IMG/VR virus record: IMGVR_UViG_3300020141_000109
Span: 1 to 32,407 of that record
Length of the DNA stretch: 32,407 nt
Source of the DNA: a virus
Strand: one strand, 5' to 3'
In this document: positions 21,179-27,556 of the stretch, in pieces
Position numbering within the stretch: position 1 is the first letter of the stretch
How the letters are laid out: each line of letters begins with the position of its first letter
Program-made: the position numbers and the translations under genes
Notes under the pieces: model-generated
What the model was told of the DNA's origin: nothing
What the model saw: the letters and a program-made list of their open reading frames with translations, nothing else
Database searches by the model: none

Positions 21179-21733
21179 TCAGTTGTCCTTGTTTGCTGGT
21201 CTCTCGAAACGCATCTCACCAGCAATCGCTGATCCGGGTTTAGGAGCCTCTACGGGTATCCAGCCACGTGAGTAGGTGTGTTCCTTCAGGGATTTCTGCT
21301 TCACATAAGAGCCATCAGCGAGGATTTCAAACTCTTCTCTCGTCATAACGAGGAGACTCTTCAATGTTTGATCGTCATACTTACGCGATGACCTAATCAT
21401 CTTGAGGAGATTGGATGTCTTCTTAGCGACGGACATTCCTTTGGATCTGTTGAGCCTGATGTGCATCATCATTGCATCAACCTCATCGCAGGAGACCCAG
21501 ACAACAGGAACTTCCGTCCCAAACCTTGCTTGTATCCCTTTGGTGTCCTTGGCAATAACCCATCGTAGGTTCCCGTCAATGATTGTCCTATCCTCCGCCC
21601 TGACGACCAATGGCTGTATCCAACCCCAATCTGTCATTGACTGAATTAACGACCTTTCGTCTGGACGAAGGAGATGGCTGGTAGCCCATCGTGCTGGTTG
21701 TAGCGAGTCAATTTCTACTGTTTCTATGTTCAT
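21179..21733 (-). CDS. ParB/Srx-fold protein (IbrB-like), partner of PAPS-reductase-like proteins
   Basis: 184 aa. ParB-type motifs are seen at residues 39-45 (IQPLVVR) and 51-62 (IIDGNLRWVIAK, the GxxR box), with LNRSKG at 94-99 following as in many ParB-like nucleases. Family members have ATP/CTP-binding or nuclease activity; some act beside PAPS-reductase-like proteins (for example IbrB with IbrA). The C-terminal half (residues 100-184) is helical then Pro/Gly-rich. The gene overlaps the PAPS-reductase-like gene by ATGA, indicating coupled expression. Target and activity are not deducible. Confidence 0.75.
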   Translation of the reverse strand: MNIETVEIDSLQPARWATSHLLRPDERSLIQSMTDWGWIQPLVVRAEDRTIIDGNLRWVIAKDTKGIQARFGTEVPVVWVSCDEVDAMMMHIRLNRSKGMSVAKKTSNLLKMIRSSRKYDDQTLKSLLVMTREEFEILADGSYVKQKSLKEHTYSRGWIPVEAPKPGSAIAGEMRFERPANKDN

Positions 21734-22527
21734 GAATCCTCATCCATAAAGCACCCACATGATCCCCAGTCGTCTTTGTCAAACATCTGTGGTGCATCTT
21801 CTATCTGTGTACGGAAAGCCTTCAATGTCAATGGGAAAGTTTCCTTGTTTACAGTCTTCTTCAGGATTGCCACATTCTTCCCGAGCATGACACGGGTGCG
21901 TTCTTCTTCTTCTTCCCATTCGATATATCTCGGTTTGTTCCATTCAAGAAGGAGCTTCCAAGAAGCTTGCCCTCCACGAACACAGGCACCTCCACAGTTT
22001 GCATGACTGAAACCTGCAGCGTAAAGACGTGGTGGTTCTATCCCCATGCTTCGGAACTTCTCAAGAAGTGCGTACTTCTCTATGTATGGCTCGTTCATCA
22101 TCGGGGCCTCTATCTTCCATGGAAGCCACAATGGCTCAGCCTTCTCGAAACGATGTGGTTCCGTCCAGTCAAATCCAAGGTAAATGATTGATGACTCTGG
22201 TGGGCAGTTGTGCTTAATCCACTTATTGAGAGCTTCCCTCTTGAGGATTCGTGAACAGACAGCAAATCTGTTGTTTGGTACAACACGCTGATCGCGTCCA
22301 ACTTGCATTGGGTTTCTGCCGTCTCTGATTATGATCCACTCCCACCGAGGAGAAAGTGCTTTGACTACCTCTTCAGCGAAACGCCAGTTGTCTTCGTCTT
22401 CCACCATTGTGTCGGCAGTAAGAAGGACAAGCCTGTCCTCTGGCTGTGCTTGCTCCTGTACACGGAAAGCCACTTCGGCACTTCCTGCTCCTGTGGAGAA
22501 CTGTACGCATCTAACTATTCCTGTCAT
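21730..22527 (-). CDS. PAPS-reductase-like PP-loop protein with Cys motifs (variant loop)
   Basis: 265 aa from the ATG at 22527, with AGAAGGG about eight bases upstream; a longer opening to 22608 would overlap the neighbour. The adenine nucleotide alpha-hydrolase fold is seen from VRCVQFSTGAGSAEVAFRV, where the PP-loop reads STGAGS rather than SGGKDS. NRFAVCSRILKREAL (Cys91) and YLGFDWTEPHRFEKAE follow, then FSHANCGGACVRGGQASW (Cys178, Cys182) and a final WGSCGCF (Cys257, Cys259). These cysteines could hold an iron-sulfur cluster or carry sulfur. I recognise the layout from phage and bacterial proteins usually annotated as phosphoadenosine phosphosulfate reductase, with unproven function. The lysine missing from the loop is notable. 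Confidence 0.75.
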   Translation of the reverse strand: MTGIVRCVQFSTGAGSAEVAFRVQEQAQPEDRLVLLTADTMVEDEDNWRFAEEVVKALSPRWEWIIIRDGRNPMQVGRDQRVVPNNRFAVCSRILKREALNKWIKHNCPPESSIIYLGFDWTEPHRFEKAEPLWLPWKIEAPMMNEPYIEKYALLEKFRSMGIEPPRLYAAGFSHANCGGACVRGGQASWKLLLEWNKPRYIEWEEEEERTRVMLGKNVAILKKTVNKETFPLTLKAFRTQIEDAPQMFDKDDWGSCGCFMDEDS

Positions 22528-22531
22528 TTCT

Positions 22532-23677
22532 CTACCCTTCTGTAAGTTCTTGATTGTATGTCTGTTCGGCGGCGGCGCGCTTCTTCCAGTCCTTGGTCTT
22601 TGGCCCAACTGGTCGGGCAGAAGTGTTATGAAACTCGTTCATAATCAGATTTCTGATCAGCCATGACAATGGATACGAGACCGGATCAAGAATGTGTTTC
22701 TTTCTGTAGTCGGCAACAAATGCCAACGCAACAGTTCTGATTCCTGGAGTGAGCATGTTCTCGTTAATGCAACGTTTAACGCCATCCCACCCCTGATCTG
22801 CGTAGTCGTCAATATAGGCATCAACATCAAACTCGGGCCATAATCTGTGCTGTGCATCAACCTGTGGAAAGCAGTCGTAGAGCGTGTCAAACCATGCTGG
22901 TTCTGCTGCTGTGTAGTCGCGCAGTCTTCTGATACTGACCGAGTGAAGAGGGATGCCAACACGCTGCACGCCCCCAACCATTGCGGCAAGGTCGTAATAC
23001 TCACACCACTCAGCACCGTGTTCTTCACTAATGAACTTCAGCACATCAGCCGATATCCAATCGTAGATAGGTTTCGCAAACATCAACGGGATTGACTTCT
23101 CAAGTTTGTACGGGCGAGTGATGTAGTTCTCATTCAATTTGTTAACTACGGAACGGAACCTAACCATTGACTCGTTGGCGCGAACACCAGTAATGAACGC
23201 CGTACGGCCTTTCTTGCCTTGCATTGTGTAGTAGTCAATTGCTTCAGGGATTGCCTGATAGTTACTTAAACCGAAATGTCCTGCATGGATAGCCCACGGT
23301 GGCATCTCTCTAACGAGCCTTCCTTGCTGTTGACGCATACCTGACCAAAGCAAGACATATTCCCGTTTACCGAGAACCCAACACTCTTGTCCAACTGGAA
23401 GGCAGTACCACTCCATGTCAACCCAGTCGTAATTACGAACCTTGTTGATGAAATCAATAACTACTGGGCTTACCATTTCTTCATCTCTGAAGATGACCTT
23501 TACGGGGCCAAGACCACGCGCCTCGTGAATCTCCTTAGCGAGATACAAAGCAGCAGTTGAATCTTTACCGCCAGAGAACTGAACACACACCGTGTCAAAG
23601 GTGTCGTAAATGTGCTTCATACGTTCTCTTGCCGCATCAACACACGACATGTCCAGAAACATTCTTTGCCTAGCCAT
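22532..23677 (-). CDS. PAPS-reductase-family protein, IbrA-like (intact PP-loop)
   Basis: 381 aa. The PP-loop is intact (VCVQFSGGKDSTAALYLAKE, SGGKDS at 35-40). Later conserved elements are ITGVRANESMVRFRSV (163-177), MFAKPIYDWISADVLKF (199-215) and a long C-terminal region with LHSVSIRRLRDY and MLTPGIRTVALAFVADYRKK. This arrangement matches IbrA/DUF3440-type members rather than sulfate-assimilation CysH, which is shorter with a C-terminal Cys motif. These enzymes activate a substrate with ATP through the PP-loop; the acceptor here is unknown and might be DNA or RNA. The ATG at 23677 has GAGGT nine bases upstream. Confidence 0.8.
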   Translation of the reverse strand: MARQRMFLDMSCVDAARERMKHIYDTFDTVCVQFSGGKDSTAALYLAKEIHEARGLGPVKVIFRDEEMVSPVVIDFINKVRNYDWVDMEWYCLPVGQECWVLGKREYVLLWSGMRQQQGRLVREMPPWAIHAGHFGLSNYQAIPEAIDYYTMQGKKGRTAFITGVRANESMVRFRSVVNKLNENYITRPYKLEKSIPLMFAKPIYDWISADVLKFISEEHGAEWCEYYDLAAMVGGVQRVGIPLHSVSIRRLRDYTAAEPAWFDTLYDCFPQVDAQHRLWPEFDVDAYIDDYADQGWDGVKRCINENMLTPGIRTVALAFVADYRKKHILDPVSYPLSWLIRNLIMNEFHNTSARPVGPKTKDWKKRAAAEQTYNQELTEG

Positions 23678-23861
23678 CTGTGTTTACCTCTTCGTCGGCT
23701 TGATCCCATGTCATGCCGTACACAACTTCAGGATTCCTTCTACAAATACCGCATCGTCCTATTGCGTGGTAACCGTGGGTCTTCCAAAGGCGACAACACT
23801 TCGCTACTGTTTCTGGCCCCCATTCATTTCGCAGACGCATTCTCGCATCGCTACTCGTCAT
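23670..23861 (-). CDS. Small Cys-rich protein, possible zinc-binding
   Basis: 63 aa from the ATG at 23861, preceded by AAGGA. An extended in-frame opening to 23978 runs over the preceding gene and lacks a signal. Cysteines at 22, 23, 37 and 40 (AKCCRLWKTHGYH, then GRCGICRR) with histidines 29 and 32 could form a small zinc site. The C-terminus is acidic. The gene overlaps the zinc-knuckle gene before it by 11 bases and the IbrA-like gene after it by eight, so it is embedded in the island. I do not recognise the family. Confidence 0.6.
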   Translation of the reverse strand: MTSSDARMRLRNEWGPETVAKCCRLWKTHGYHAIGRCGICRRNPEVVYGMTWDQADEEVNTDG

Positions 23862-24093
23862 GTGGTTGTTCCTTGGTTTCTTTGTTCTGAATCCATCCGC
23901 TGTAACTGATCTTGGTTGGGAGGTTTGACGATACCGATGTAGGTACAAACGAGTACGAAGCACCTGTTGGAGGGTCAAACTTCTCTACCATCTTTACTGT
24001 TCCGTCAAGGTTGAACTCAACCCTCTTCACTCTTGGGCAGGCTGTTACAGGGTGTTCTCCACCCATGCAGTACTGGCATTTCTTGTCTTCCAT
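23851..24093 (-). CDS. Small CCHC zinc-knuckle protein
   Basis: 80 aa from the ATG at 24093, one base after the ParB gene's TGA (TTTGAGATG). Residues 6-19 (CQYCMGGEHPVTAC) are an exact CX2CX4HX4C zinc-knuckle, a nucleic-acid-binding element best known from retroviral nucleocapsid proteins and rare in bacteria. It continues as PRVKRVEFNLDGTVKMVEKF, which I recall from short actinophage proteins. The rest looks beta-rich or disordered. A single-strand RNA or DNA binding role is plausible. It is coupled to both neighbours in the PAPS-reductase/ParB island. Confidence 0.75.
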   Translation of the reverse strand: MEDKKCQYCMGGEHPVTACPRVKRVEFNLDGTVKMVEKFDPPTGASYSFVPTSVSSNLPTKISYSGWIQNKETKEQPHDE

Positions 24094-24094
24094 C

Positions 24095-24871
24095 TCAAAC
24101 CTCGCTATGTGCGTCAATGAACGATATGAGTTTCTGTGCAATCGTGTCGCCGTCGTAGCCAGGGTTGGCTCTCATCCATTTCAGGAAGTCCCACCAGCGC
24201 GACATCTGCTCATGATCGTCAAACACAACGTTGTAAGAGAACACGGCTTGCTTTGACCCAGAGTTTCCAGTCGTTCCAGATCCACCCGCTACTGCGAGTT
24301 TCTGATCCATTCCTGCTGGAGCGACATATCTATCGCTTCCATCTTCCTGTCGAACAGTATCCATTACTGGCAAAGGATCAATCAGTACGGGAGGGATGTA
24401 TGCGCCTGCTGCGCCGTTGGCGTTGATTGACGAGTAGGACTCATCCACGTCGGTGCCGAGTGCTGCAACTTCGTATTCATCCCATCCGACAGCATCAAAC
24501 AATTCGGGGAAGTCGTACACGACATCGTTCAAGGCTGCGTTCAATAGTTCGGGATCCGTCTTACCGAGATCAGCGACCCTGTTGTCTACGAGAGCAAAGG
24601 CGAGGGCATGTGATGTTTCTCCCTCCATCTTCACAGCGGCAACGTGTGACCAGCCAAGTTTCTTGACAGCCTGGAGTTGGTGGTTGCCGGCTACGACTAC
24701 GAACCTTCCATCTTCTTGTTCTTTGATGACTATTGGCTTCAATTGTCCGAACTCGGAATATGAAGCCATGATTGCATCAACATTGCCGATACGTGGGTTC
24801 CCTGGAAGAGGGTCAAGTAGCGACACATCTACTGCGAGATCAATTAGGTTCTGGTTGATGTTGTGATTCAT
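24095..24871 (-). CDS. ParB/Srx-fold protein with C-terminal phage domain
   Basis: 258 aa. The ParB domain occupies residues 15-110: PLPGNPRIGNVDAIMASYSE, GQLKPIVIK (42-50) and VVVAGNHQLQAVKKLGW (58-74), then ALVDNRVADLGKTDPELL. The 'GNHQL.A' replaces GxxRL.A, as in phage ParB-like nucleases and ParB domains fused to methylases. Residues 195-258 form a separate helical region (YNVVFDDHEQMSRWWDFLKW, IAQKLISFIDAH), and a Gly/Ser linker lies between. AGGAG six bases upstream supports the ATG at 24871. No methyltransferase domain is present, so it may act with the PP-loop proteins of the island or as a nuclease or CTPase switch. Confidence 0.8.
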   Translation of the reverse strand: MNHNINQNLIDLAVDVSLLDPLPGNPRIGNVDAIMASYSEFGQLKPIVIKEQEDGRFVVVAGNHQLQAVKKLGWSHVAAVKMEGETSHALAFALVDNRVADLGKTDPELLNAALNDVVYDFPELFDAVGWDEYEVAALGTDVDESYSSINANGAAGAYIPPVLIDPLPVMDTVRQEDGSDRYVAPAGMDQKLAVAGGSGTTGNSGSKQAVFSYNVVFDDHEQMSRWWDFLKWMRANPGYDGDTIAQKLISFIDAHSEV

Positions 24872-24889
24872 TTGTCTCCTAGGTGGATA

Positions 24890-25240
24890 TCAGTTGCTCG
24901 TCTGAGCTCTGACGTTTGCGTTGATTGTGCGAAGAGCATCAATGGATGAGCGAACAGATCCGAGTTTCTCTCTCTTTGACTTGATGAGTGCATCGGCAAT
25001 CTTCCACTCCATGTGAGTGTCGGCAATTTGATAGTCGGCCCATGCTTCACGTTCCTTGATTGATCCGTTGGCTGCTAGATAAGCCTTTGCCCATTCCGTC
25101 TTGAAACGAACTTCTTTCTTAGCGGAGTCAATAGCGAGGGTCTCAAAGACTTCCGTTTCGCTTTCTAGTTCGGCTAGAAGACGCAAGATTTCCTCTTCCA
25201 CCTCTACCTGGCTGATGGGTGCGTTCCTTGAGTTCTTCAT
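24890..25240 (-). CDS. Conserved coiled-coil phage protein
   Basis: 116 aa from the ATG at 25240 (MKNSRNAPISQVEVEEEILR), fixed by GAGG six bases upstream. Almost the entire protein is predicted-helical and charged, for example LLAELESETEVFETLA, TEWAKAYLAANGSIKEREAW, then SIDALRTINANVRAQTS. The 'EWAKAYL...SIKEREAWADYQI.D....W..A.AL.KS.R..L.S.R..IDALRTINANV' layout is familiar from actinophages, where it follows a RuvC-like gene, as here. The function is unknown. It overlaps nothing but starts just inside the resolvase's stop region. Confidence 0.65.
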   Translation of the reverse strand: MKNSRNAPISQVEVEEEILRLLAELESETEVFETLAIDSAKKEVRFKTEWAKAYLAANGSIKEREAWADYQIADTHMEWKIADALIKSKREKLGSVRSSIDALRTINANVRAQTSN

Positions 25241-25253
25241 ATTTACCTCAGTG

Positions 25254-25772
25254 CTATGCGGACGGAAATCCCGACCAGTCAATCTTGTCTAGTGCAGCCA
25301 TATTGGCTAATGGCCAATCATATTCGCTTTCACCGAGGCGCGCTAGTCCCATTTCACGTAATACCCAGGCATCACACATATCATCGCCTCCTTTGCCACT
25401 CCAGACGATTCCGGTTCTAGCTGAGATGGACGAAACAACTTCATTCTTGGAGGCGTTGCCTCGACCTGTTGCAAACTTCGCACGAGACGTCGGTGGGATG
25501 TCAATGTGTGGAACACCTGCTTCGTAGAGGGCGAGTCTCACGACACCACCCAACTCACCAAGCGCATGAGATTGACTGTTGCGCGACGAGAACGAATACC
25601 CCTCAACGAGGACAATCGGATCTTGCTGTGCTGCGATGACAAGCATTATGCCTTCACGGATTTCTTTGAGTCGTTCCATTCCTTTGGTCTTTGCTTGGTA
25701 AGCAAACGAACCTTCTTTGGAGCAGACCCCAGTTGATGAGAGGCTTAGGTCTATTCCGATTAGGTCAGGCAT
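25254..25772 (-). CDS. RuvC-fold Holliday junction resolvase-like protein
   Basis: 172 aa. RNase-H/RuvC motifs are in order: LIGIDLSLSSTG (Asp8), PIVLVEGYSF (Glu57), and a final acidic cluster GKGGDDMCDAWVLRE (Asp130/131/134). Intermediate HALGELGGVVRLALYEAG (69-86) and PPTSRAKFATGRGNASK (93-109) match phage RuvC-like resolvases that cleave branched DNA before packaging. It is the first gene of the long leftward island/tail operon. The ATG has no good Shine-Dalgarno and sits only a few bases after a promoter-like element, consistent with a leaderless message. Confidence 0.8.
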   Translation of the reverse strand: MPDLIGIDLSLSSTGVCSKEGSFAYQAKTKGMERLKEIREGIMLVIAAQQDPIVLVEGYSFSSRNSQSHALGELGGVVRLALYEAGVPHIDIPPTSRAKFATGRGNASKNEVVSSISARTGIVWSGKGGDDMCDAWVLREMGLARLGESEYDWPLANMAALDKIDWSGFPSA

Positions 25773-25810: not shown

Positions 25811-25863
25811 AAATGTGAGTGGTATTGTGCTTTCGCACCCAATCAATCGGAAGGACACTAACC

Positions 25864-26214
25864 ATGTCAACAGCAGTACTCGCCCCAACAACAATCGTTA
25901 TGGAAATTGAAGGAGTCTTAACGACAGCTCTTGTCGCCAAAGTCGCCCTTCCATACAACGGAACAATCACTAGCGCAATGGCCGTAGTTTCTACAGCAGC
26001 CACAGGCTCGGCCCTGAACTTCACATTGGTGAACGGTGCAGTAAATGCTGGTCAGTTCTCAATCGCTGCTGGAGCAGAAGTTGATGCAGCAACCCTCACC
26101 CCAGCGAATTGCTCATTTGAAGCAGGCGACATCATCGCTGTCACTATCGGTCAAATCGGCAGTTCATACGCGGGTAAAGACCTCACCATCGCTTTCACAG
26201 TCGTCGAAGCCTAA
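25864..26214 (+). CDS. Small beta-rich protein, possible virion decoration or fibre component
   Basis: 116 aa from the ATG at 25864, with GGAAGGA upstream; a GTG-initiated extension to 25819 is unlikely. The whole sequence is Ala/Thr/Val/Gly-rich with alternating strands (VAKVALPYNGTITSAMAVVS, GSALNFTLVNG, AGDIIAVTIGQIGSSYAG, LTIAFTVVEA). Such proteins resemble phage surface proteins with a jelly-roll or Ig-like fold. It starts the plus-strand three-gene cassette, which lies opposite to all flanking genes. The role is inferred only from composition and pattern. Confidence 0.6.
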   Translation: MSTAVLAPTTIVMEIEGVLTTALVAKVALPYNGTITSAMAVVSTAATGSALNFTLVNGAVNAGQFSIAAGAEVDAATLTPANCSFEAGDIIAVTIGQIGSSYAGKDLTIAFTVVEA

Positions 26215-26215
26215 A

Positions 26216-26233
26216 CAACAACAACAACAACAA
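26216..26233. repeat. (CAA)6 triplet tract between plus-strand genes
   Basis: Six consecutive CAA units lie immediately after the TAA of the beta-rich gene and 15 bases before the ATG of the next gene. On the plus strand this leader would be unstructured. It may serve as a spacer or a simple unstructured translational leader, or be just a slippage product. Confidence 0.85.
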
Positions 26234-26248
26234 GAGAGCAGCATCGCT

Positions 26249-26941
26249 ATGTCTGGAATTATCGCACCATCAATCGTCAACTACGAATGGACAGTCAGGC
26301 AGGGTGACCCTTCTTTCCTGAATGTGTCTTTCCCGTTCCGAGTCAAGATTGAGTCAATCTGGTTCACAACTCAGCAGAGTTACGGCGCAAACCCATATGG
26401 TCTCTTTGCTACGGGCGAGAACATGGTGGATCTTGAGACAACCGACAGGGTGTTGTCTTTGGCGGCGTTTAAGTCCAAGAACTCCAAGACACAGCACAAT
26501 AACTACGATAATCCAACAGACCTGATGACGGTATTTCAGAGTACTGACTGGAACTTCAGCAACTTGGATGAAGACCTCAAGCCAACAATGTGGCTCGGAA
26601 ACCCAGACAATGCGGCTGGAAGAATCGGCGCATTCGCTACAGGCGGCTTTGCAACACAGGCACCGCAACTTCGCAGCACCGCAGCAGCGCCTGTTGACAA
26701 GAGTCATGCTCATAACGCAAGTTGGAGCGAAGGGGAGTGGAACACAAATACCTATCTCGCAGATGCCGCAATCATGAACACTGACGAAATGCTTCAGTTG
26801 TTTCCTTATGCTGCTGCTGGCGACTGGACGGACTACGAGAACGATGCAATCGTCACAATCTCAGTTGCTTACACAGGCATTCATGGCACGGATACACCGT
26901 CCGCTTCAGCGAAGCCTTGGACAGCATGGTGGAACGACTAA
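26249..26941 (+). CDS. Hypothetical protein (possible virion-surface protein)
   Basis: 230 aa from the ATG at 26249. A longer opening exists only through the upstream gene's other frame. The N-terminus (MSGIIAPSIVNYEWTVRQGD) and SFPFRVKIESIWFTTQQSYG suggest beta structure; the middle contains DLKPTMWLGNPDNAAGRIGA and AHNASWSEGEWNTNTYLAD, and the end DAIVTISVAYTGIHGTDTPS. Trp, Tyr and Asn are common. I do not recognise a family. Its position after a beta-rich surface-like gene suggests the cassette encodes accessory virion or host-interaction proteins. The weak AGAGAG before the ATG follows the CAA tract. Confidence 0.6.
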   Translation: MSGIIAPSIVNYEWTVRQGDPSFLNVSFPFRVKIESIWFTTQQSYGANPYGLFATGENMVDLETTDRVLSLAAFKSKNSKTQHNNYDNPTDLMTVFQSTDWNFSNLDEDLKPTMWLGNPDNAAGRIGAFATGGFATQAPQLRSTAAAPVDKSHAHNASWSEGEWNTNTYLADAAIMNTDEMLQLFPYAAAGDWTDYENDAIVTISVAYTGIHGTDTPSASAKPWTAWWND

Positions 26942-26950
26942 TATCGCCTT

Positions 26951-27556
26951 GTGGCAATGAAGACGGTTTGGTTCTGGAAAGGGCCGCAACTTAATTCAAT
27001 GTGGCAGGTCGTCTGCGCCTACACAACAGACGAACATCCTCACCCGTTTACGGCTGAAAGCAAGGCATGTCCTACCAAGTCTGAACCGCATTCGTTTGTT
27101 ATGGCTAACGAACGCGGGCACCTTCTAGTTAGGTTGATTGACGAGCAGTTTGACGGTATTCCAGCAATCTGGTACGCACAAGAGGAGAACAGCACTCCTG
27201 TCCCTATGGTTACAATCCATGCGATAGTCAGCGACCTATTCGCTCCGGGGTGTGTTGTTAATCTGAAAGAGGCAGTAGAGGCTGGCCTCAAGCCGCCAGA
27301 TAGAGCAGGGTTCATAAAGTGGTTCAGAGATGACTCACGGATTCAACAGGTGTTTGTGTCCGAGAACTGGCGTCGACGCAGAATCAGCACGGTTCTCTTT
27401 AGCGTTGCAGACCTCGTTATTATTTCTGGCAACTACGGCCCGTATCTGAACGGTGGGGACATCACCACTCCTGACGGTGAAGAGCTACGCAAAGCCTGGA
27501 GCCAATCAGCACGGGTAACCCCACGTGTCGGATCGGTGCTTCCCTACAAATCGTAG
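26951..27556 (+). CDS. GNAT-like acetyltransferase-fold protein (diverged)
   Basis: 201 aa from GTG at 26951 (an ATG two codons later is an alternative). The C-terminal half has a GNAT-like element: FVSENWRRRRISTVLFSVAD (135-154), resembling the acetyl-CoA-binding 'V.p..RrrGIg..L' segment, followed by GGDITTPDGEELRKAW, which I know as the end of actinobacterial GNAT domains. The N-terminus (residues 1-110) has no clear match. Substrate is unknown. It is the last gene of the plus-strand cassette and converges with the HNH gene, overlapping its end by 13 bases. The Gly-x-Gly that normally positions CoA is missing, so activity is uncertain. Confidence 0.5.
   Translation: MAMKTVWFWKGPQLNSMWQVVCAYTTDEHPHPFTAESKACPTKSEPHSFVMANERGHLLVRLIDEQFDGIPAIWYAQEENSTPVPMVTIHAIVSDLFAPGCVVNLKEAVEAGLKPPDRAGFIKWFRDDSRIQQVFVSENWRRRRISTVLFSVADLVIISGNYGPYLNGGDITTPDGEELRKAWSQSARVTPRVGSVLPYKS

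Follow-up and report, generated by a model that had tools for sequence, protein, structure and literature searches.

Conserved genes at the phage locus

Genes for two ParB-like proteins and for a protein resembling PAPS reductases lie close together in IMG/VR virus record IMGVR_UViG_3300020141_000109 (positions 1 to 32,407). This 32,407-base stretch, called the window here, encodes a terminase (phrog_979) and a tail sheath (phrog_23) according to PHROG matches, and represents a contractile-tailed phage. Comparison of sequences from related loci indicates that the ancient unit among these genes is ParB1-PAPS-ParB2, in which PAPS denotes the gene for protein P0003. An earlier first-pass annotation, made from the sequence alone, placed the trio in a compact island of eight genes at 21179-25772. 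All eight open reading frames (ORFs) are present on the minus strand, where the order of transcription is RuvC, coiled-coil protein, ParB1, CCHC, Cys-rich CysS, P0003, P0002 and ParB2. By increasing coordinate, they are as follows.

21179..21733, minus strand: ParB2 (P0001), 184 amino acids, IbrB/YbdM-family ParB/Srx-fold protein (phrog_2159, E 2e-29)
21730..22527, minus strand: P0002, 265 amino acids, PptA-like PP-loop protein (phrog_424, E 1.7e-32)
22532..23677, minus strand: P0003, 381 amino acids, IbrA/YbdN-type PP-loop ATPase, "PAPS reductase-like" (phrog_2302, E 1.3e-71)
23670..23861, minus strand: CysS, 63 amino acids from ATG, small Cys-rich protein with CC...CxxC
23851..24093, minus strand: CCHC (P0005), 80 amino acids from ATG, small zinc-knuckle protein
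24095..24871, minus strand: ParB1 (P0006), 258 amino acids, second ParB/Srx-fold protein (phrog_723, E 1.7e-35; PF02195, 31.0 bits)
24890..25240, minus strand: coiled-coil protein (P0007), 116 amino acids from ATG (phrog_1389, E 7.6e-13)
25254..25772, minus strand: RuvC-like resolvase (P0008), 172 amino acids (phrog_159, E 2.2e-30)

The PHROG E-values support both ParB assignments and the RuvC-like assignment made in the first-pass annotation, and the zinc knuckle that it reported in P0005 is an exact C-X2-C-X4-H-X4-C motif. Its description of tight packing also holds, with spacings of -11, -8, -4, +1, +4, +13 and +18 bases between genes, but a 4-base ATGA overlap, which it had taken to be the usual junction, occurs only between P0002 and ParB2. 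Comparison of the window with contig L010 gives nonsynonymous and synonymous substitution rates (dN/dS) of 0.015/0.551 (~0.03) for P0002 and 0.006/0.699 (~0.01) for P0003, and both genes are therefore under strong purifying selection. This gene set is not a chance assembly, given a gene order kept at many loci and dN/dS values far short of 1.

A search of IMG/VR with P0003 detected at least 597 stretches that encode a relative, and the best 80 were kept for comparison of loci. Many of these loci have a common gene order, namely terminase...SSAP-Cas4-like-HNH-RuvC-CC-ParB1-(variable small genes)-PAPS-ParB2-head-tail connector, where CC is the coiled-coil protein. Among 57 non-redundant phage-type loci with sufficient flank, 32 have PAPS flanked by ParB genes on both sides, 6 have a ParB gene on one side only and 19 lack flanking ParB genes. 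The last two groups include loci of high GC content whose genes are mis-called (for example, L108 and L099), and 32 of 57 is therefore a minimum.

The trio is also present in Arthrobacter phage Shrooms, mycobacteriophage Heathcliff, a plasmid-borne phage of Amycolatopsis, Bacillus phage 031MP003, Rhizobium phage RHph_I4 and IMG/VR loci that a search with the Heathcliff protein retrieved. Searches of phage records with ParB2 and with PAPS match nearly identical phage groups, comprising phages of Mycobacterium (52 and 55 records, respectively), Arthrobacter (12 in each search), Bacillus (6 in each), Rhizobium (4 in each) and Faecalibacterium (3 in each). Co-occurrence across phages, which the first-pass annotation had proposed to examine for its island, is thus strong for ParB1-PAPS-ParB2 and extends to distant phages and elements. 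In several phages the trio is near the terminase gene, and in two it adjoins a methyltransferase gene (phrog_11826). Mycobacteriophages Heathcliff and Phlyer and Arthrobacter phages Shrooms and Laroye have the trio in the same order as the window, beside or near terminase, but they lack a PptA-like gene and carry other small genes between ParB1 and PAPS.

One P0003 lineage (L029, L041, L049, L050 and L063; ~68% identity) has neither ParB1 nor ParB2 within 8 kb. Its members have WhiB genes and, beside PAPS on the opposite strand, a SNF2 helicase gene; several also encode an NGQHRL-motif protein (phrog_5931) and an upstream Pyr_excise glycosylase. Of 22 related records, 9 contain WhiB genes, the sister G002 among them, which suggests actinobacterial hosts. 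For the window phage itself this evidence is only suggestive, since the near-identical contig G001 had no WhiB match.

P0003 and ParB2 are related to the IbrA/IbrB pair over most of their lengths and occur in the same order. The profile of the P0003 family aligns with Escherichia coli K-12 YbdN over 297 columns (hhalign, probability 99.7, E 1.3e-25), and that of the ParB2 family aligns with E. coli YbdM over 162 columns that include the YSRAW end (probability 99.7, E 9.8e-26). These comparisons, together with the SGGKDS motif of P0003, uphold the earlier assignment of an IbrA-like protein and an IbrA/IbrB-type pair. P0003 also has GxRAxES and DW motifs and a helical C-terminal region, matches PF01507 (PAPS_reduct) with 33.9 bits (cut-off 22.5), and has PAPS reductase, FAD synthase and CysD as its best folds. 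In alignments of its family, SGGKDS and GxRxxES are invariant or nearly so. Bacterial IbrA proteins are annotated with DUF3440, whereas P0003 has no Pfam match to DUF3440 at E<=1 and its alignment with YbdN ends at residue 318 of 406. For this reason we class P0003 as related to IbrA but not as a textbook member of that family. ParB2 carries IIDG..R and NR-K-G motifs and a C-terminal YSR-W, the last in common with YbdM. Its sequences DGNLRW, NRSKG and YSRGW correspond to the DGxHR-type motif, the N-R-[SAG]-[KR]-G motif and the YSRAW end of the IbrB ParB fold, and D53, G54, R57, N95, R96, Y154, S155 and W158 are invariant. A homologue of P0003 at L130:4759-6858 (plus strand) is 700 amino acids long and contains an intein-like insert of ~340 amino acids at C92, with a segment resembling a homing endonuclease.

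ParB1, which carries AGNH and DNR motifs, is weakly similar to YbdM (probability 93.7, 1.9e-7). In 80 bacterial IbrA loci, ParB2 is downstream in 76 and ParB1 is upstream in 2, whereas most phage loci of the trio type have ParB1 upstream of PAPS (Fisher p 5e-14, which is indicative only, as the loci are not independent). ParB1 is therefore mainly a phage-specific third component. The window accordingly differs from IbrA/IbrB in this extra upstream gene, and also in the PptA-like gene P0002 that lies between the members of the pair; in testable trio-type phage loci, IbrB is directly downstream of IbrA. Many phages carry pairs of the IbrA/IbrB type, as do bacteria throughout, including E. coli K-12 (ybdN-ybdM). 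The phage trio isolates the conserved minimum of such pairs, to which a single ParB specific to phages is added. We found no paper giving a proven chemistry for such pairs. Bacterial IbrA/IbrB loci (L190-L269) include 17 with an upstream gene judged by sequence to be helicase-like and 14 with a nearby acetyltransferase-like gene.

P0002, a PptA-like PP-loop protein

The first-pass annotation regarded the two PP-loop genes as a doubling. However, P0002 and P0003 belong to different families, and duplication can be rejected, since their profiles match only over the 75-column PP-loop region, their PHROGs differ (phrog_424 and phrog_2302) and so do their nearest relatives. P0002 is found in the window and in the near-identical contigs L008-L010 and L090, which we call the window clade. 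Sister phages L011-L014 (85% identity) lack it, and their PAPS gene runs directly into ParB2; in all, 21 of 22 related records are without P0002. The gene is a late insertion between PAPS and ParB2, and because it is confined to the window clade, having two PP-loop proteins is a feature of that small clade and not of the module.

The P0002 profile matches chain C of PDB entry 21fy, called "PptA" (E 1.3e-14). PptA has 100% identity with a protein annotated as hypothetical in Vibrio phage vB_VhaP_VH-5. The sequence of E. coli cysteine desulfurase IscS is listed in the same entry, so that 21fy represents a phage PP-loop protein studied with a host-type desulfurase, and the contents of the entry indicate a complex of PptA with the host enzyme. 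PptA and the P0002 family are both assigned to PHROG 424 and have in common an S-x-G-x-x-S loop, a C-[ST]-x-x-[LM]K motif, NC..C and C-terminal cysteines. The two proteins are only ~20% identical, and their contexts differ: the PptA gene stands by itself, with RNA polymerase and head genes on either side, whereas P0002 is inside the ParB-PAPS-ParB operon. A small gene beside that for PptA, considered as a solved partner, had no PDB match, and the literature searched contained nothing on PptA or on a function of the phage trio.

P0002 has no Pfam match. In 30 diverse relatives the PP-loop serines and C91, C178, C182, C257 and C259 are invariant, and C108 is conserved in at least 90%. The first-pass annotation was correct in noting five cysteines and the unusual loop (STGAGS), although this loop is not degenerate, since S-x-G-x-x-S is the pattern of the family. 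An AlphaFold2 model (predicted local distance difference test score, pLDDT, 90.9) has TtuA, CysH, NcsA and LarE as its best PDB folds, of which TtuA, NcsA and LarE are 4Fe-4S thiolases. The five invariant cysteines and the predicted fold resemble those of iron-sulfur (Fe-S) thiolases. The PHROG category of the family is host takeover/auxiliary.

Some P0002 relatives adjoin NifU/SufU genes (L006, L139 and L157). No desulfurase of the Aminotran_5 type and no NifU was detected in 16 related virus records, as would be expected if the host enzyme is used. At L139:5459-7757, a P0002 relative precedes another PP-loop gene of phrog_424, with SGGNDS, and a gene resembling NifU/SufU; this phage cassette truly has two PP-loop proteins within one PHROG. 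The closest relatives outside the window clade (L091, L092-L095 and L097) are 0.5-3 kb from a gene that, by sequence, resembles C5-cytosine methyltransferases. In phage records H55-H70, H201 and H203, genes of the P0002 family are deposited under conflicting names, which include ribonucleotide reductase, tRNA methyltransferase, integrase and FAD synthetase-related enzyme.

A candidate nucleic-acid modification module

The module is a variant of the known but unexplained IbrA/IbrB pair, and what is new is its link to sulfur transfer. We tentatively favour a reading in which phage IbrA/IbrB and ParB1 modify nucleic acid, probably DNA, supplemented in the window clade by P0002 as a sulfurtransferase fed by host IscS. 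We infer the substrate, the chemistry, the joint action of P0002 with the trio and the benefit to the phage as follows. The PP-loop ATPase P0003 would most likely activate the nucleic-acid target by adenylation, with release of pyrophosphate, while ParB1 and ParB2 would most likely handle DNA in a nucleotide-gated manner, binding both and holding or selecting the target, a role that ParB-superfamily proteins have in the Dnd, Ssp and Dpd systems. P0002 would most likely take persulfide sulfur from a host cysteine desulfurase (IscS/SufS), hold it at an Fe-S or cysteine site, and transfer it with ATP to the nucleic acid. The resulting sulfur mark on phage DNA (or RNA) could help against host nucleases. 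Because the window clade links the trio to a family that shares a PDB entry with a host sulfur donor, the predicted product is sulfur on nucleic acid.

Several known systems offer precedents for such an arrangement. Partners of the ParB superfamily are known for the Dnd, Ssp and Dpd modification systems (PMC11662687, PMC12839542, PMC10853773). ParB-like DndB, SspE and DpdB, and IscS as a substitute desulfurase, are described in phosphorothioation or deazaguanine systems (PMC11662687, PMC12839542), and IscS serves as the desulfurase in some Dnd systems (PMC11662687). DndC and BrxP profiles match all 33 P0003 relatives, with P0003's own match confined to the PP-loop region, and P0002 weakly matches the SspD profile. 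Compared with DndC, SspD and BrxP, however, the scores of P0003 and P0002 are far below those of full-length membership, and no DndD/E, SspB/C or desulfurase partners were found; in particular, the 18 window proteins scanned include no nearby ATPase (DndD/SspC/BrxC) or DNA-recognition partner (DndE/SspB) as in Dnd, Ssp or BREX-4. SNF2 helicase genes adjoin IbrA in Streptococcus phage CHPC1148 and in the WhiB-bearing L041/L050 phage lineage. The kinship of P0002 with PptA, the DndC/BrxP-like matches and these helicases, with those judged by sequence in bacterial loci, give better support to the modification role that the first-pass annotation had proposed as part of a modification or anti-defence pathway. 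Modification remains plausible as an inference. The premise of duplication in that annotation is wrong, and conservation of the small zinc-type proteins does not reach beyond the window clade and its sister.

Other observations weigh against this interpretation. To our knowledge, the sole function reported for IbrA/IbrB is co-activation of prophage genes. P0003 need not handle sulfur, because its family has one near-invariant cysteine (C225) and no Fe-S cysteine set. PADLOC identified no partner of the DndD, DndE, SspB or SspC type among the 18 proteins scanned from the window, which is a fragment, and no AAA_23 (DndD-like) ATPase was present in 12 related records. Also, since co-occurrence of P0002 with the trio is limited to the window clade, their link may be accidental.

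If that link is indeed accidental, P0002 could be independent cargo that thiolates tRNA or another small substrate. Within the related phage group the gene is limited to the window clade, elsewhere it occurs alone in many unrelated phages, and the tRNA thiolases TtuA and NcsA are among its best fold matches. However, P0002 is inside the operon with a 4-base overlap with ParB2, and the C5-methyltransferase-like genes near its close relatives (L091-L095 and L097) point to DNA, so that we consider this explanation possible but rather doubtful.

The trio might instead regulate transcription or replication, with ParB1 and ParB2 binding DNA and IbrA modulating them through ATP, thereby switching phage or prophage genes. 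This would suit the annotation of IbrA/IbrB-family proteins, to which P0003 and ParB2 belong, as prophage co-activators in phage records, and also the lack of a conserved multi-cysteine site in P0003. We nevertheless think it unlikely, because P0003 retains a full PP-loop and GxRAxES under strong purifying selection, beyond what a regulator needs, and because helicases, a methyltransferase and a DNA glycosylase are encoded by neighbouring genes.

A more specific form of the modification reading, which we also regard as unlikely and put forward with still more reserve, is Dnd-independent thiolation of phage DNA, in which the DNA to be modified is selected and activated by an IbrA/IbrB-ParB trio that works with a PptA-type sulfurtransferase fed by host IscS. 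If true, it would give IbrA/IbrB of bacteria and phages a biochemical role as a nucleic-acid modifier.

It is improbable that P0002 and PptA simply bind and divert host IscS, starving a sulfur-based defence (phosphorothioation) or Fe-S assembly. The presence of both PptA and IscS in 21fy and the host takeover/auxiliary category would agree with such a role, but a pure decoy has no need of PP-loop serines and five cysteines that are invariant in 30 diverse relatives, and several P0002 relatives bring their own NifU/SufU. Finally, the name used in databases and the presence of CysH among the best fold matches might suggest that P0003 or P0002 is a true PAPS reductase that boosts sulfate assimilation, but this is very improbable and was rejected on cysteine pattern and gene context: P0003 family alignments lack the CysH-type Fe-S and C-terminal catalytic cysteines, a ParB partner is near-universal in the bacterial IbrA family and common in phages, and P0002 is nearest to PptA, not CysH.

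Neighbouring genes

The first-pass annotation also counted small nucleic-acid-binding proteins and the RuvC nuclease as parts of the island. Among the loci compared, clear copies of CysS and CCHC are restricted to the window clade and its sister. In the sister locus L012, CysS keeps CC...CxxC and CCHC keeps the zinc-knuckle motif. The two zinc-type proteins are thus not co-conserved with the trio beyond these groups, and we rejected them as core parts.

Synteny shows that the RuvC and coiled-coil genes travel with an HNH-RuvC-CC recombination cassette and not with the PAPS/ParB genes. In L051, L072, L085 and L087, RuvC, the coiled-coil gene and ParB1 are jointly absent while PAPS-ParB2 is retained, and in phage Heathcliff, RuvC is located elsewhere, on the other strand. 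RuvC is therefore separable from the PAPS/ParB genes and was likewise rejected as a core part; in the window it is a neighbour that marks the boundary of this cassette. Plus-strand genes at 25819-27556 break the minus-strand block of the window between HNH and RuvC; two of these genes have no PHROG match and, among the loci compared, are confined to the window clade and its sister.

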